A stretch of 64,000 nt of DNA from Heliopora coerulea (lineage: Eukaryota; Cnidaria; Anthozoa; Scleralcyonacea; Helioporidae), in contig JASJOG010000021.1 in assembly GCA_030142905.1 (NCBI GenBank), positions 2,632,001 through 2,696,000 of the forward strand, in the 5' to 3' direction. Position numbers and translations under genes: made by a program. Each line of letters opens with the position of its first letter. Positions within the stretch are counted from its first letter, which is position 1. The notes below the pieces were generated by a model that made no database searches, was not told the DNA's origin, and saw nothing but the letters and a program-made list of their open reading frames with translations. Positions 4,754 through 53,103 of this stretch are shown in pieces.

Positions 4754-33836
<29,083 letters not shown>

Positions 33837-41140: not shown

Positions 41141-43943
41141 TAGGCCTTGACACAAATATCCGGATATTTTTTGAGATATTTAGAAGTTTCCGAGATATTT
41201 AGAAAATTTTAGAAAATTTTGGGATATTTAGGAAAATTTATAGCTTTTTTTGGCTGTTTTCCAGCTCTTCCTCGCTATTTTCTTGACAGAATACTCAGTT
41301 CTATCATTCTATGCTAGAAATAATCCAGTTCAGCGGTTTCCCACTTGAATAATGTATTCCATATCACTAGACACTAGCAGCCATTTGTCAAAATGGCGGA
41401 TGCTGGAAACAATGAGCCTGAACCTTCTTCAGGCTCTGAGTCTACTCCTTCTACTACTGCAAATCCTTCAATACCTGAAATACGTAAAGAAAGAGAAGTA
41501 GTTTCCCTGCTGGACCGACTGAGATCGCCAGCTGCAAGTGAGTTGTCAAGAAAAAGAAAGCTTTCGGTCAACTCCGTCAACACGCCTGGAAATCGTCGAT
41601 CACAGACCAGTGTGTAAAGAAAGGCAAATGAGCCTATGAAAGTTTCTGCAAGTCAAAGAGTGCAAGAGTTTAAAGAAGAGTCTTTAATTGTTAGCCGGAA
41701 TGGTGCATTGTTCTGCCAATCTTGCCGGGAAGAGTTATCCCTGAAGAAACAGAATATAGCCGTGCACGTGTCAAGCAAGAAGCACAAGGCCAACAAGGAG
41801 AAGATGGAAAAAACTACAAAGAAGGAAAGGCATATTGCTAAGTATGATGAGGCACACCACTCTAAAGGTGAGACACTTCCCACTAGCACAAGAGTTTTTA
41901 GAGTAAAAGTTGTGCAAGCATTTCTGAAGAGTGGAACACCATTAAATAGGATGAAATATTTCAGAGATCTGTTTGAAGAAGCAGGCTTCCCTTTGACATC
42001 TTCTACCCACATGAGCCAATTGATCCCTTTTGTGTTAAAAGAGGAATATAAATCAATATCCAAGGAAATACTGGGTAAGGAACTTTCTATCATATTTGAT
42101 GGAACAACTCGAGATGGTGAAGCCCTAGCTGTTCTGACTCGTTTTGTGCAAGACTGGGAGGTGAAAGTTAGGCTTGTGAGGTTTCAACTTGTAAAAAGTT
42201 CAGTTAACGGCGACGAGTTAGCTCGCATTATAATTGAGGTACTCCATCGAAAGCTGAATGTCCCTCATGGCTGCGTCTTAGCAGCAATGAGGGACAGAGC
42301 GCCAGTCAACACCAAGGCGTTACAAACGGTGTCTGTGTTGTACCCAGAAATGCTTGATGCTGGGTGCATCTCCCACTTTCTAGACCGGGTGGGAACCAAA
42401 TGCAACACTCCTGTTCTCAAGCAGTTCATGACGACGTGGAATCTCATATTTACTACAAGTATGAAGGGAAGAAGAGTATGGAAAGAGGTATCCGGGAAAG
42501 CCATGCCATGGTACAATGCGACAAGATGGTGGAGCTACTGGGAGTGTGCTAAAGTTGTGTTTGAGGAGTGGAGGCATATCACTACATTTTTAGAGAGCAA
42601 CGAAGAGTTTGCTGACACATCAAGGCAACGACTTTCCCAGATTTTGATGCAGAATGCAGTACAGTTGAGAGTCGAGCTAGCATCGCTCATGGAACTGGAG
42701 AAGTTTGTTAAGGCAACCTACACTCTAGAGGGGGATGGTCACTTGATATTTATCGCCTTTCAGAAGCTTGAAGAGCTCCGAGCTCTTATTCACGCGCACA
42801 ATTTCCCAGTTATCCTAGGTGTGGTTCAAGAACTGTTTCCTCTGAACATTGGCGACCAGCAAAGATGGTACTAGTATGGCCTAAGGGAGTGTGTGACGCC
42901 TGCCTTTCAGTATTTTCTGAACACTTTGGCGAATGACTTGGTAGTCTCCCGCACTATGAAAGTGTTCCGTGCTGCACAGCTTTTCAGTCCACGAGCAGTC
43001 AAGGTATCTCGACCCACAGCTGCCGACCTCGAAAGGATCAGAGATGTGCCGTTTTTGAACACCAATGATGTAATCCAGTCACTAAAAGATGAGCTCCCCA
43101 CTTACCTTGTCAAAGCTGCGGAGATTAATGATGCCTTTGATATCCTTTCTGACTCCATGCGATGGTGGAAAGACGTCTCCCCTGACCTCCCATCATGGTC
43201 TTCCGCAGTACAGAAAGTGGTACTGGTACAGCCATCATCTGCAGCAGCGGAGAGGGTCTTTTCACTACTCGTGACCATGTTTGGAGACCAGCAGCATGAT
43301 GCCTTGGAGGACTATCTAGAGGCTGCTCTTATGCTTCGAGTTAACGATTGTTGGTGCCTTGTATGGTATGATTGGTTTGTATAATTGTATCAGCTTAACG
43401 ACTGCTTTATGACCATGGTTGATATTCGTCTAAACATAGAAACTTTGCCACCTTTGGAGCTACAAGAGTTTTATTTTTTTTACACCAATTTACGGCCACA
43501 TAGTTCAAAGTCGGTATAGGATGTTTCCTCCTTTTGTTAAGTTTTCAGTCTCAGAGGTTTCTTCAGGTTGCATTTTATTCTCTTAAAGTAGAGCGGATAT
43601 TTGTATTAGTAGGAAGGTTACTGCGTCATAGTCATAGTCGTCACACACATGATAGACATACCAACTGTTTAACCCATTAGTGAGAAAACATTAAACTTTG
43701 CATCCATGTTGTTTTGAAAGTTGCTTTATTTCCATAGTACTAGTGCAGACAATCTCTGACATACTTTTCAGCTCCCGCTGGGGAAAATTTTGGCCAAAGG
43801 GATTCAAAATCGGCTTATTTTTAAAACAAAAATACGAGATATTTCGAGATATTTAGAAAATTTTTTGGGATATTTAGACATTTTTTTGAGAATTTCTGGA
43901 AAGATATTTAGGCGATTTTACGTGATATTTGTGTCAAGGCCTA
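41141..43943 (+). mobile_element. hAT transposon, 2.8 kb
   Basis: Ends taggccttgacacaaatatc and gatatttgtgtcaaggccta are exact inverted repeats of 20 bp. Subterminal copies of 'gatattta(g)aaaatttt' occur near both ends in opposite orientation. The target duplication is TATCCTCT / TATCCTGT (7 of 8). It is inserted into LTR-like unit 2; unit 1 preserves the empty site. It carries one transposase gene broken by two stops. Confidence 0.9.
41393..43384 (+). pseudogene. hAT transposase with CGGBP1-like finger, two stops
   Basis: One frame of 664 codons, with TAA at 41615-41617 and TAG at 42872-42874 and no frameshift. The N terminus is a Ser/Pro/Thr-rich leader. A C-x2-C-x13-H-x5-H finger (FCQSC ... 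HVSSKKH) follows, with flanking sequence like CGG-repeat-binding protein 1. Then come the RNase H-like core (IIFDGTTRDGEALAVLTRF; AAMRDRAPVNTKAL) and the C-terminal hAT dimerisation block (SSAAAERVFSLL ... FGDQQ ... LEDYLEAALMLRVN). CGGBP1 is known to derive from a hAT transposase, so this looks like a member of the parental group. It could function only if the stops were suppressed; I call it dead. Confidence 0.85.
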
Positions 43944-46247: not shown

Positions 46248-46816
46248 CAGTACCACTCCAAGAGTGTGGCCACTGAAGCGCTTTTCCCGGGCGCAAAATC
46301 TTATGGGGCGACATTTTCAGAAACAAAGATTCGACTTTTTTTCATCTTTTTTTTAAATTAAAAAATATTTTGCAAAAATGTGAAAAGAATGTTTCGATTT
46401 CTGGTCGTTAATTGGTGGAATTTGCACCTGTCAAAGCTCCGGAGCGCCTGTTTTAAATTTTCAATTTCATTTTGAGTACAGTGGAACCCCGCCATATCGT
46501 CACCTCGTTAATACGGTCACCTCGTTATTACGACCCCTTTTTTTTTTTGTCCTGGCGAAACGCCCATAAATTTTATTATAAGGAGATTCCGTTAATGCGG
46601 CCACCCCGTTAATGCGTGCAACGGCCACATTTTGAAATCCCAATGTATATATTCCTTCATAACTTCACCTCATCAATACGGCCACTCAAACCAAATGTGT
46701 GTTCCGAAAGACAGATTAATAAAGTAAATGGTTTGAACCCGGGAAATTCGGTACATGTTAGTGATAGTAGATCGTCCAGGTTACTATAGTCTTGAGAAAG
46801 ACTGTTGGTGATTGAC

Positions 46817-46847
46817 GTTTCGACAGCCTCAGCGGCGGTCATCTTCA
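46817..46847 (-). ncRNA. Hammerhead-like motif at Penelope end, copy A
   Basis: On the - strand: ATGAAGA, stem GACcGCC/GGCtGTC around GCTGA, then GAAACGTC. The usual leading C of CUGANGA is A here, so cleavage is probably lost. Position in the 3' end fits published hammerheads in Penelope elements. Confidence 0.5.
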
Positions 46848-46912
46848 TAGTCAAAAAGTAGGAATAGTTAGGAACATAACCACCCCATAATTACCCCATA
46901 ACCACCCACAAG

Positions 46913-47985
46913 TCATGCGTGTGGGTGGTTGTGGGAGGTTGCGGTTTGTGGATATGAGTCATTGGCATTGTTAGAGTCGGTGTATTGTCTAGCCCTTTGT
47001 TTTAAGTTTTGAATAAGTCTTTTGTAAGGTGCTGGTAATTGTTGTGATCGGTTTAGTGCTTCTGGTTCCAAGTTGGTAAACCAACTTTCCAGTGTAAGCC
47101 GTTGTTTATAGTTTGTGCTGTACGTTATGCATGCTGCCGAGTCCCAGCCAATGTTGTGTTTGGTTTGTCGGTGGTGTTCGGCAATGTGGTTAGTTCTATC
47201 CCCGTTCTTAGTTACTCGTTTATGTTCAGTTAGTCTAGTGTTCAAGTTCCTGCCAGTTTCACCAATATATGTCGCCTGGCAGTCGGCACATTTGATCTTG
47301 TAGATCGCACCTTATCTATCGCGTGGGTGTTCTTTGTCTTTAACGTTAGTGAGTAGATTTCGTAAAATTGTAATCGGTCCGTGTGCAACTCGGATGTTGT
47401 AAAGCCGTAAGATACGCGAGATGATCTCAGACGTACCTCTGACGTAAGGTATCGTAGCTGTTGTAGTGGTCTGGTAGTTGGTTTCGTTTATTTTGTGGTC
47501 TTTGTAGGTGTTGAGTTTGATGAAGTCAGAGTTGTAGTTGCTCTTACGGAACACGTGTTGTAGGTACTCGTTCTCGTGGCGTAAAGCGTCTGGTGAATCA
47601 CAGATACGTTGTGCAGGTCTAGTCAACGTCTTGATGGTAGTGGCTTTGTGTGAAGTAGGGTTGTAGGATGATTCGTCGAGTAATCTGTCAGTGTGGGTGG
47701 GTTTTCTATAAATGGTAGTCCATTATTCGTCATTGTCACGTTTTACCAAGTAGTCGAGGAAAGAAAGTGTTCCTTTGTCTTCGGTCTCCTTAGTAAATTG
47801 TATGTCGTAGTTCTGTGAGTTAAGATGGTTGTGAAATTGGTCAATATCGTCGTCATGTAGAACAGTAATAGTATCGTCAACGTATCGAAACCAAAAAGGT
47901 AACGTTAGTCCGTAGGTGGCAAGGGCTTGTTCCTCAATGGATTGCATCACAATTTCAGCAACCACAACAGAAATTGATTAAGTTT
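46913..47985 (-). pseudogene. Penelope reverse transcriptase/GIY-YIG remnant
   Basis: The frame reads VVVAEIVMQSIEEQALATYG, the catalytic FRYVDDT (47873-47884), FLDYLVKRDNDE-stop-WTTIYRKPTHTDRLL, ICDSPDALRHENEYLQHVF, then stop and AIYKIKCADCQATYIGETGR (GIY-YIG endonuclease, about 47240-47310), LNTRLTEHKR and NHIAEHHRQTKH. Two in-frame TAA codons interrupt it, with no frameshift. It belongs to the endonuclease-containing Penelope clade. The N-terminal part of the reverse transcriptase is missing, so the copy is inactive. Confidence 0.9.
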
Positions 47986-48136
47986 ATTCAAAACTTAAAA
48001 CAAACGGCTAGACAATGCACCGACTCTAATAATGCCAATGACTCACACCCAGAAATCGCAATCTCCCACAACCACCCACACGCATGAAGTAATGAACCAG
48101 TTACATAACCGTTCCTAACTATTCCTCTTTTTGGCT

Positions 48137-48168
48137 ATGAAGATGACTGCCGTTGAGGCCGTCGAAAC
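48137..48168 (+). ncRNA. Hammerhead-like motif at Penelope end, copy B
   Basis: The inverted counterpart of copy A: ATGAAGA, stem GACtGCC/GGCcGTC, GAAACGTC. The stem is kept in both copies although the single mismatch in it differs (c.t against t.c). Confidence 0.5.
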
Positions 48169-48996
48169 GTCAGTCACCAACAGTCTTTCTCACGACTACA
48201 GTAACCTGGACAATCTACTATCACTAACATGAAAGACAGATTAGTGATGAACAAAAATAAATCTTGAGAAACGACAACAAGCTTCTTTTTTAATTGAAAA
48301 CGTCTTGGACATGTGATACCGTTGACTTTTAAAACAGCCATTTCCTTTACAAAGTCGGGAATGTAATACCACCCCTATTAAATGACGAAGGAAAATAAAA
48401 CTTGACAAACAATAATATCTGTTAAATTGCAAAATGATTAAGTCATTGTCCCTGCACAGAACGAGTCAATCGAAAGTCACAAATTTTTTTCAATATTCTG
48501 TTGAAAATTAATTTATTAATAAAAGTAACATGTAAAATTGGAGTGTTTGGGGCCTTTGTTTTTAAAAGGACAGTATGTATAGCAGATTGTTCCCGTTTAT
48601 AATGTTTAGTTATGTTTATCTTACCGTGTAGTTCCGTTTCAATTAAATCATATCTGCATTCCGGTTGTTTAAGCACAGTTATTTAGAAGTGCAGTTGTGA
48701 TATAACTGTCATGACGTCACCTGAGAGAGATCAGCCATGAAATTTGACACCACCTTGTTAATACTGCCAGATACTTACGGTCCCGTTGGTGGCCATATTG
48801 ACAGAGTTCCACTGTAATAAAAAACTCCAAAGCACTAAAAACACTTGTTTCTACAGAAGTACCTCCAATAGTTGTATAAGGTTAGTACCGGTATACAAAT
48901 GTTATAAGAAGCCTGGGGTTTGTTAGAGAGAGCCAAGGGGGCGTCTTAAAATTTGCCCCAGGCGAATTACCACCTTGGTACGGCTCTGGGTACATG

Positions 48997-50814: not shown

Positions 50815-52195
50815 TATGGCGGTCAAAAAGAATCGATTATGTTAAGATTATGTCACTTTCTGCTTACATAGGCAGACAAGAAGTACATCGTACACCAGCA
50901 GCCTTCAGGGTTATAGTAATGAATGTTTTGGATAGATTGAGATATGTCCCATAATATTTGTGGAGATTATCTGTTTTTAAAGTATTTTATAGCATACGCT
51001 AAACAAATTTTAAGTCTTACAAGAAAGGGTTATTGGCCTGTCACAAATTGGAAGATACGGAATAATGGGCCAAAGAGAAGAATCAGCTTGGAAGATCGAG
51101 GAAAAGTGCTGGCATTATCCGAAGAAGTCTACACACAACGTGAAATTGCTGCTCGTGTGGGTCGTACTCAAAGCAGTGTCAGTGAAATCCTCAAGAAGAA
51201 GAGACTCACTGGTAGTGTGAAAGATGCCAAGATCCCTGGACGGAAACGAAAGATATCTGAGAGGGAGGACAGGCTCATGGTAAGGAAAAGCAAGTCAAGT
51301 CGCTACAAGACTGACCCGCAAATAAAAGCTGAGATGCTAATTGAACATGGTGTCAATATCTCGGTTTCCACCACCCAAAGAAGGCTTAGAGAGACAGGTC
51401 TAAAGGGCTGCAAGCCCAGAAAGAAGCCTAAGCTTACTGCACGCTATAAGAAGTCTCGATTACAGTTTGCATAAGCACACAAAGATTGGACGGCTGAACA
51501 GTGGTCCCAAGTTATCTTCAGCGATGAATCAAGGTTTCTTCATAAGAGCGATGGGCGTGTGTATGTCAGAAGAATGGCTGGCGAAGAACTAAAGGAAAAC
51601 TGCATTCAGACAACTGTCAAACATGGAGGGGGTGGCATCATGGTATGGGGCAGCATCAATGCAAGAGGTGTTGGCTGTCTTTCTAAGATAGATGGAAAGC
51701 TTAATGGAGAACGATACATTGATCTCCTAGAAAATTCGCTTATTCCAACCACACACACGCTGACCATAGCAGATGGTTGGATATTCCAGCATGACAATAC
51801 AACTTGTCACACCTCCCGCCTTGTCAAAAGATCGTTTAAGGAAGAGGGTATAACTGTGTTAACAGCACAGTCACCCGATCTCAACCCTATTGAGAATCTA
51901 TGGGACCAACGTAAGACAATGGTCCAAGAGCAAATCTCCATCAATGTCACAGAACTCTGGAGTGCTGTAAAAGCCGCATGGCAAGGCTTTCCGTTAGATA
52001 AGCTAATTATTTTAATAAATAGCATGCCTCGAAGGTGTAAAGCAGTGATCAAAGCTGGTGGAGAAGCCACTAAATATTAAGATTTATTTTCTGTTTGTTT
52101 TCGGTGTAATTACTTGTCCTGATAAGGTTTGTTACAATGTTAATGGCGTCACCATCTTTAGCTTATGTGCGATCGATTCTTTTTGACAGCCAGTG
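50815..52195 (+). mobile_element. Tc1 transposon
   Basis: The right end (cgattctttttgacagccag, then TG and TA) and the left end (tggcggtcaaaaagaatcga) are inverted repeats. The left terminus has lost its first bases to a TATG-rich sequence. Same TIR family as the MITE at 32566-33183. Confidence 0.9.
50944..52080 (+). pseudogene. Tc1 transposase, near full length, broken
   Basis: The frame from about 51061 reads GPKRRISLEDRGKVLALSEE and YTQREIAARVGRTQSSVSEI (paired-like helix-turn-helix), then IFSDESRF (first Asp), VKHGGGGIMVWG, FQHDNTTCH (second Asp) and SPDLNPIENLW (Glu). The spacing from second Asp to Glu is 32 residues, not the usual 34, through loss of two residues after ITVL. There is an in-frame TAA at 51472-51474 (FA-stop-AHKDW). 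The probable original start ATGGG (51065) is out of frame by one base. About 40 codons of open frame before it are fortuitous. Confidence 0.9.

Positions 52196-52599: not shown

Positions 52600-52638
<39 letters not shown>
52590..52638. repeat. (CA)n(TA)n microsatellite
   Basis: ACACAC then ATATAT, ending where the inverted hammerhead unit begins. Confidence 0.95.
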
Positions 52639-52657
52639 GTTCAATTTGAACACTTAC

Positions 52658-52682
52658 GTTTCGCTGTACTACAGCTCATCAG
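52658..52682 (-). ncRNA. Hammerhead ribozyme core, canonical (left)
   Basis: On the - strand: CTGATGA, stem GCTGT/ACAGC with loop AGT, then GAAAC. All conserved core bases match the hammerhead consensus. After GAAAC the sequence guaagugu-u could form a minimal stem III (ACG/UGU) and a GUU cleavage triplet. A stem I is not obvious, so activity is uncertain. Confidence 0.6.
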
Positions 52683-52871
52683 TGCAGCTTGGAACGAATT
52701 TGGATTGATAGGGACCAGAGTGCTCAAACCGCTACTCAAGCGGTGGGCATTGCTTAACCCTATTGGTTATCGTTATGCGTCCATAGAATGCTCAACAACA
52801 TCGAAATGTGGGAGCGTATATATGTTCAATCCATGCATATATATATATATCCAAGTTCGTTCCGAGCTGCA

Positions 52872-52896
52872 CTGATGAGCTGTAGTACAGCGAAAC
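52872..52896 (+). ncRNA. Hammerhead ribozyme core, canonical (right)
   Basis: CTGATGA, stem GCTGT/ACAGC, then GAAAC. Downstream 'ttacgtc' allows a two-base-pair stem III (AC/GU) and a GUC triplet, the preferred cleavage site. Minimal stem III is typical of Penelope-type hammerheads. Stem I is weak. Confidence 0.6.
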
Positions 52897-52912
52897 TTAC
52901 GTCTGAAGATTG

Positions 52913-52914
<2 letters not shown>

Positions 52915-52950
<36 letters not shown>

Positions 52951-53103
52951 TGTATATGTATGTATGTATGTATGTATGAATGTATGTATGCATGTATGTA
53001 TGCATGTATGTCACTTAATCGGTGTGCCTACCTCTTCGCTCGGTCGGCACGAAAACCTCAGACAAATTCTTTCCCGTACATATTGTGTGTGTGTGTGTGT
53101 GTA
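52915..53103. repeat. (TA)n, (TATG)n and (GT)n microsatellites
   Basis: TA repeat 52917-52946, TATG/TGCATGTA units to about 53010, and a short (GT)n at 53083-53102. Confidence 0.95.

Follow-up and report, generated by a model that had tools for sequence, protein, structure and literature searches.

Among the animal repeats that carry hammerhead ribozymes, those described as metazoan non-LTR retrozymes (Cervera and de la Pena 2020, PMC7229834) are the closest to the repeat reported here. As far as the available text of that report goes, they share with it a type I hammerhead with a two-base-pair helix III closed by a tetraloop, an occurrence as tandem copies, a GC content below 50%, many dispersed copies and the presence of Penelope-like elements (PLEs) in the same genome; their unit measures 170-400 nt, against 186 nt in the present case. 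PLEs themselves bear hammerheads in their pseudo-LTRs (pLTRs), and the accessible parts of three studies (PMC11167929, PMC3846280, PMC7761336) report internal priming, AT-rich targets and some head-to-head copies with outward 3' ends, all of which have an observed or proposed counterpart here; head-to-head inverted pLTRs are given as the commonest inverted PLE arrangement in the portion of PMC3846280 dealing with it. According to the same sources, PLE hammerheads usually lack helix III, whereas the present family has one, and the PLEs further differ from the 186-bp repeat in that the latter is devoid of reverse transcriptase (RT) and endonuclease. The satellite hammerheads of newt and axolotl, as presented in the available text of PMC7229834, likewise combine a weak helix III with a palindromic tetraloop (ACGUACGU in our family), a combination which makes cleavage as a dimer plausible; Amex1, described there with a single-pair helix III, differs from the two pairs found here and also by its sequence and its unit length (330-350 bp satellite). 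For the giant squid, 235 Hammerhead_1 loci are mentioned in the accessible part of PMC6962438. The nature of the enzyme mobilising animal retrozymes is an open question, which a family of hundreds of 186-bp copies makes testable.

The window considered here, i.e. the whole stretch of 64,000 nucleotides analysed from Heliopora coerulea, contains two hammerhead cores facing each other, for which the first-pass annotation proposed an unrecognised small self-cleaving element. The pair consists of two worn copies of a 186-base repeat and is not a new element. Judged from its sequence, this repeat fits the animal non-LTR retrozymes, an already known kind: it is likely a retrozyme, with an RNA for which self-cleavage is predicted, and was probably copied into AT-rich microsatellites by the RT of another element, the window holding two opposite copies in one (TA)n tract. 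Attribution of the cores to hammerheads of the animal retroelement type was thus supported by the existence of a 186-bp dispersed repeat with a type I hammerhead. A difference with the described metazoan retrozymes, as far as documented in PMC7229834, lies in the short arrays of the family (at most 2.1 units among 83 pieces). Most published retrozyme circles for which a description was accessible are also highly self-paired, whereas the circle predicted here is not unusually so. Finally, some of the present copies are head-to-head, a disposition that the available text of PMC7229834 does not mention and of which no mention was found for retrozymes in the portions of the literature searched.

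The identity of the two cores (CTGATGA, stem II GCTGT/ACAGC, GAAAC) at 52658-52682 on the - strand and 52872-52896 on the + strand was confirmed: the 24-nt string CTGATGAGCTGTAGTACAGCGAAA occupies 52659-52682 (-) and 52872-52895 (+), a C coming next after each. The inverted arms can be aligned over 74 bp with 8 differences, 6 of them packed into the 12 bp directly 3' of GAAAC. The pair had been held to be very unlikely by chance, and a full motif like that of the + copy (exact core, stem II of at least 4 bp, stem III of at least 2 bp, H17 and the first two stem I pairs) is expected 0.0008 times per window (from 4 matches in 640 Mb of randomly generated sequence, converted to the two strands of 64 kb), a value which is low for a single window but not negligible across a large scan. 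The reality of the motif is settled by the genome, because the exact 25-mer core occurs there 176 times and its reversed-pattern control 0 times. Other genomic copies of the unit, which the annotation had suggested to search for, are therefore numerous, and a pattern without constraint on stem II but requiring the consensus stem III and GUC gave 256 matches, again with 0 for the control. No match to the core pattern was obtained in genome contigs of the prokaryote and viral collections, nor to three further patterns in viral collections, and none was found in phage records. An exact 19-mer of the core in an IMG/VR viral contig (L001:1732-1750) was read as chance.

A first genome-wide search returned 584 first-look candidates, 40 of which were scored, several being tandem at about 186 bp. 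The first sample comprises 39 loci taken by best match, or 40 with the window. The second comprises 40 loci: the exact-core matches were followed in list order within their first 100 places, skipping the first-sample loci and two places near contig ends, and the last locus (L096) was picked from lower in the list for its opposite-strand pair; both samples were thus drawn by similarity to the 186-bp family. The unit measures 186 bp, with a GC content of 0.47, and 16 of the 39 first-sample loci contain another unit, complete or partial, in the same orientation. The longest array over the 83 pieces of the two samples reaches 2.10 units, and many second-sample copies are shorter than one unit; copies exceeding one unit imply a circular or multimeric template. 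The unit is too short for an RT or a GIY-YIG endonuclease, and the one reading frame searched gave no homologue. Near-identical tRNA-like sequences, perhaps a tRNA-derived repeat, lie near two retrozyme copies (L010:1243-1309 and L012:522-588).

The family hammerhead, CTGCA-CTGATGA-GCTGT-AGT-ACAGC-GAAAC-GTAC-GTC-TGCAG, is of type I, with stems I and II of 5 bp, a stem III of 2 bp bearing a tetraloop, and the triplet GUC. Among 54 hammerheads tabulated at 40 loci, the 52 located outside the window include 24 with all five features and 40 with an intact core, and all 52 keep H17. Two other checks proposed by the annotation turned out negative. No Rfam model reached its gathering score in the window, where the arms obtained 16.6-21.6 bits against hammerhead models at loose thresholds, nor at 16 family loci; the intact copy L026 aligned in register with Hammerhead_HH9 at 26.6 bits (E 3.8e-5) for a cut-off of 52. 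Maintenance of the stems by compensatory change was nearly absent as well: for 12 pairs compared across 98 hammerheads, a single change affected both sides of a pair (2 of the 100 rows, with 11-12 mismatches each, were dropped). The stems decay rather than covary, and this near absence of compensatory change is expected of a young, decaying family. Decay is similar in the core (2.7%) and the body (3.6%) of the unit, which counts against the retrozyme reading. The copy number, the fixed 3' ends described below and the 24 of 52 fully intact hammerheads outweigh these Rfam and covariation negatives.

The lack of gathering matches in the window and at the 16 loci would also be explained if an ordinary repeat family, real as a repeat, resembled a hammerhead by chance and its RNA never cut, and so would the minimum-energy folds, which prefer other pairings: the hammerhead is weaker by 8 kcal/mol for the majority unit and by 7.8 for the right-hand window copy, in a model that does not include tertiary contacts. 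We consider such a chance likeness improbable, since the majority unit has the conserved core together with a GUC site and a 5-bp stem I, both of which lay outside the core string used for the 176-match count, and since the genome harbours further hammerhead families, with three places over the RF00163 cut-off against none in 14 control genomes. Circular folding was rejected as a support: the majority unit folds at -37.7 kcal/mol for a shuffle mean of -39.7, 133 of 200 shuffles being as good or better, so that it is no more self-paired than shuffled sequence, and the left-hand window copy gave a weak signal (17 of 200 shuffles as good).

In the window, the left-hand copy (copy A, 52632..52837, - strand) comprises a full 186-nt unit and the next 19 nt, and matches the majority unit of 35 genomic copies at 189 of 204 aligned bases. 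It starts at the point where the hammerhead is predicted to cleave (U1.1, plus a 2-nt insert), and its 3' end lies in ATTGAACATATATA. The unit boundary inside it is marked by a second occurrence of the 3'-end sequence, GATTGAACATATATA, at 52817..52831 (-); the two occurrences of these 15 nt are 185 bp apart (0 of 20,000 shuffles). This repeat inside the window led to the prediction of a unit of about 185 bp, either tandem or circular, which the genome search then confirmed. The core of copy A (52658..52682, -) is followed by G17 at 52651, a base found in none of the 52 other family hammerheads tabulated, and its ribozyme is predicted to be inactive. The right-hand copy (copy B, 52849..52922, + strand) is truncated at its 5' side, extends from unit position 132 to 19 and matches the majority unit at 72 of 74 bases. 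Its core (52872..52896, +) is followed by C17 at 52903, with a predicted cut between 52903 and 52904, and its hammerhead has a 2-bp stem III with tetraloop, a mismatch in stem I due to a C>A change at unit position 3, and a G>T change in loop III; it keeps GUC and is predicted to be weakened through stem I. Of the GUC/GUU cleavage sites anticipated by the annotation, only GUC in the + copy was recovered as a cleavable triplet, G17 occupying the position in the - copy, where a GUU register would cost stem I by inspection. An 11-bp (TA)n spacer (52838..52848) separates the copies. The outer 3' side of copy A is an (AT)13 tract (52613..52638), the inner end of which overlaps its ATATATA tract, and that of copy B is a (TA)n/(TATG)n tract (52917..53011), the first bases of which overlap its own ATATATA tract. 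A stem III inversion or a hetero-dimer was envisaged for the exact reverse complementarity of ACTTACGT and ACGTAAGT in the window, and rejected as the family has ACGTACGT and both are simple mutants of this palindrome.

The facing pair as a distinct self-cleaving element did not survive the comparison with the family, where most copies are single or tandem head-to-tail and pieces on both strands are rare; as a pair of ribozymes it is further undermined by the C17->G change of one of the two motifs, which is expected to block cleavage. The same observations bear on two other accounts. With its 74-bp inverted arms, the TA on either side and, about 0.6 kb off, a pair of ORFs for a Tc1-like transposase, the locus could recall a MITE of Tc1/mariner type, with a TA target and hammerheads arising by chance in its terminal repeats. 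This is very unlikely, as most copies have no terminal inverted repeats (both-strand pieces at 2 of 40 loci in the first sample, window included, and 5 of 40 in the second), copies occur singly or in tandem and are truncated to varying extents at the 5' side, and the Tc1 terminal repeats at 50817/52172 are unlike the arms by eye. Hardly more credible is the integration of a viroid-like circular RNA whose two polarities would both bear active hammerheads. A rod-like fold of -155.7 kcal/mol obtained for the + transcript of 52630-52925 speaks for it, but the rod simply is the inverted repeat, the - hammerhead has G17, and at the 39 remaining first-sample loci the hammerhead is present in a single polarity.

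The 3' ends of the copies are fixed in a ACATATATA tract, at unit positions 10-20 for 36 of 39 first-sample loci and 36 of 44 second-sample pieces (72 of 83 in total), and the 5' ends are variable and truncated, spread as in target-primed reverse transcription. Most copies adjoin (TA)n/(CA)n microsatellites, and a microsatellite lies within 50 bases of at least one end at 34 of 39 loci and for 36 of 44 pieces, where windows taken as background gave 4.3% and 7.5%. The sequence of tandem copies runs on beyond the usual 3'-end point, which implies that the RNA does not end there. A 3' end within 2 nt of the cleavage site was found at 3 of 39 first-sample loci (L015, L036 and L045), and 1 of 44 second-sample pieces ends within 3 nt of it, for 1.7 expected. 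A marking of the cleavage site by the 5' ends was rejected: 11 of 39 fell at positions 0-11 in the first sample and 0 of 44 within 2 nt in the second, so that this clustering is a selection bias and brings no support for cleavage in vivo. Three copies (copy A, L012 and L048) start at U1.1, an anecdotal observation.

Internal priming is the simplest reading of the fixed 3' ends. Transcripts of tandem units would fold into the hammerhead, with stem I CUGCA/UGCAG, stem II GCUGU/ACAGC and stem III AC[GUAC]GU, which would cut after GUC, and the resulting circular or multimeric RNA would serve as template. Annealing of nicked DNA, at a (TA)n or (CA)n end, to the internal ACAUAUAUA could then prime synthesis upstream, in which case nearly all copies would end there while their 5' ends vary. 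The most likely enzyme source would be the PLEs, abundant in this genome and often head-to-head.

Inverted retrozyme pairs were looked for by a sensitive scan of the window and 89 loci, three of the ten extra loci having been chosen for holding pairs. Pieces on both strands were found in the window, L027, L066, L072, L075, L088, L096 and three C35 loci, i.e. at 2 of 40 loci in the first sample (the window and L027) and at 5 of 40 in the second, L096 included, which was picked for it. The three C35 loci are duplicated copies of one locus (96-98% identity, flanks included) and were counted as one event. The two-piece inverted pairs, a small share of the loci scanned, amount to five head-to-head with 3' ends outward (the window, C35, L072, L066 and L096) and two tail-to-tail, to which one complex +/-/+ arrangement (L027) is added. 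L072 has a direct junction, its - piece ending at unit position 80, away from the usual site; L066 has a mirrored 5' flank, perhaps from local duplication, and about 0.8 kb separate the copies in L096. The tail-to-tail cases involve a 29-nt piece (L088) and a 20-nt piece (L075), so that the rule of every inverted pair being head-to-head was abandoned, holding only for the five pairs with both pieces above 60 nt. Five against two is no significant head-to-head excess.

Two successive insertions into one tract most likely account for the window pair, being the simplest explanation of both the spacer and the unshared substitutions: relative to the majority unit, copy A has 15 substitutions in 204 bases and copy B 2 in 74, none common to both. 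Copy A would have been inserted first, and copy B would later have entered the (TA)n left at its 5' side. The pair could otherwise stem from one event, in which a Penelope-type enzyme nicked both strands of (TA)n and used each of the two ends to copy one retrozyme RNA, which would give a head-to-head pair with outward 3' ends. In its favour, the two copies have their outward ends at an identical ACATATATA site, C35 resembles such a case by its nearly abutting copies (509-620 and 628-772 of L105) with 3' ends outward, L072 also has a direct head-to-head junction, Penelope neighbours in this genome are -/+ in 40 of 46 cases, and, according to the accessible part of PMC11167929, both strands are cleaved and extended by a PLE enzyme in vitro. 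This scenario is possible but the less probable one for the window, in view of the 11-bp (TA)n spacer and of the lack of common substitutions, the difference in divergence (15/204 against 2/74) not being decisive. Two ribozymes facing each other can simply represent copies of a dispersed repeat that share a simple-repeat hot spot.

The orientation of GIY-YIG neighbours within 6 kb hints at PLEs as the source: 40 of 46 are -/+ and none +/-, the others being -/- (4) and +/+ (2), in counts from 150 scored of 6,834 candidates, many from one subfamily; a distance of 2,658 bp is common to all six same-strand cases, as for a direct tandem. A PLE protein also starts inside its own RNA while cleaving and extending both strands, as stated in the available text of PMC11167929. 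The window has its own PLE fragment (46706-48243, - strand), with an RT end and GIY-YIG, and an inverted copy of the 3' tail at its other end; both 3' ends are outward and GAAAGACAGATTA flanks it at 46706 and 48231 as a 13-bp duplication. The PLE link is weakened as this PLE (46754-48231) was inserted at a site other than a microsatellite and two retrozyme pairs are tail-to-tail. Mobilisation of retrozymes by Penelope enzymes is thus suggested by a hint that is not a proof, LINEs being also possible sources. It can be put forward tentatively, and with more doubt than confidence, that animal retrozymes are moved by PLEs, the fingerprint of which would be AUAUAUA-annealed 3' ends on nicked (TA)n and head-to-head insertions (C35, L072) in Penelope geometry. 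If true, insertion geometry alone would have revealed the enzyme that is missing from the retrozyme cycle; the fixed internal 3' junction, the microsatellite target and the head-to-head events (C35, L072) make the proposal testable.

The tail of the window PLE contains GAAACGTC and no intact CTGATGA. Elsewhere in the genome, a second hammerhead family (L135, L136 and L137; C445 and C24) has the core CUGAAGA, with GAAACGTACGTC identical to that of the retrozyme, and may belong to the PLEs; L135 and L136, oriented away from one another at a distance of about 950 bp, score 36.4 bits to RF00163, over the cut-off, and L137 scores 32.7 bits, under it. A third family (L138, C757:929600-929880) scores 35.0 bits to RF00163 and adjoins a (TA)n tract. 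Among the matches listed for the RPA1 and hAT proteins encoded in the window, those bearing a name come from sponge, fish and sea anemone. Other features of the window are a Tc1-like transposon (50817-52192) with 21-nt terminal repeats (95%) and a transposase whose two ORFs (HTH_Tnp_Tc3_2 and DDE_3) are separated by a stop, a hAT-like transposase in two ORFs (41618-43381), the best named relative of which among the matches listed is from a sea anemone, and an exon of the RNA polymerase I subunit RPA1 (PF05000) at 13245-13832.
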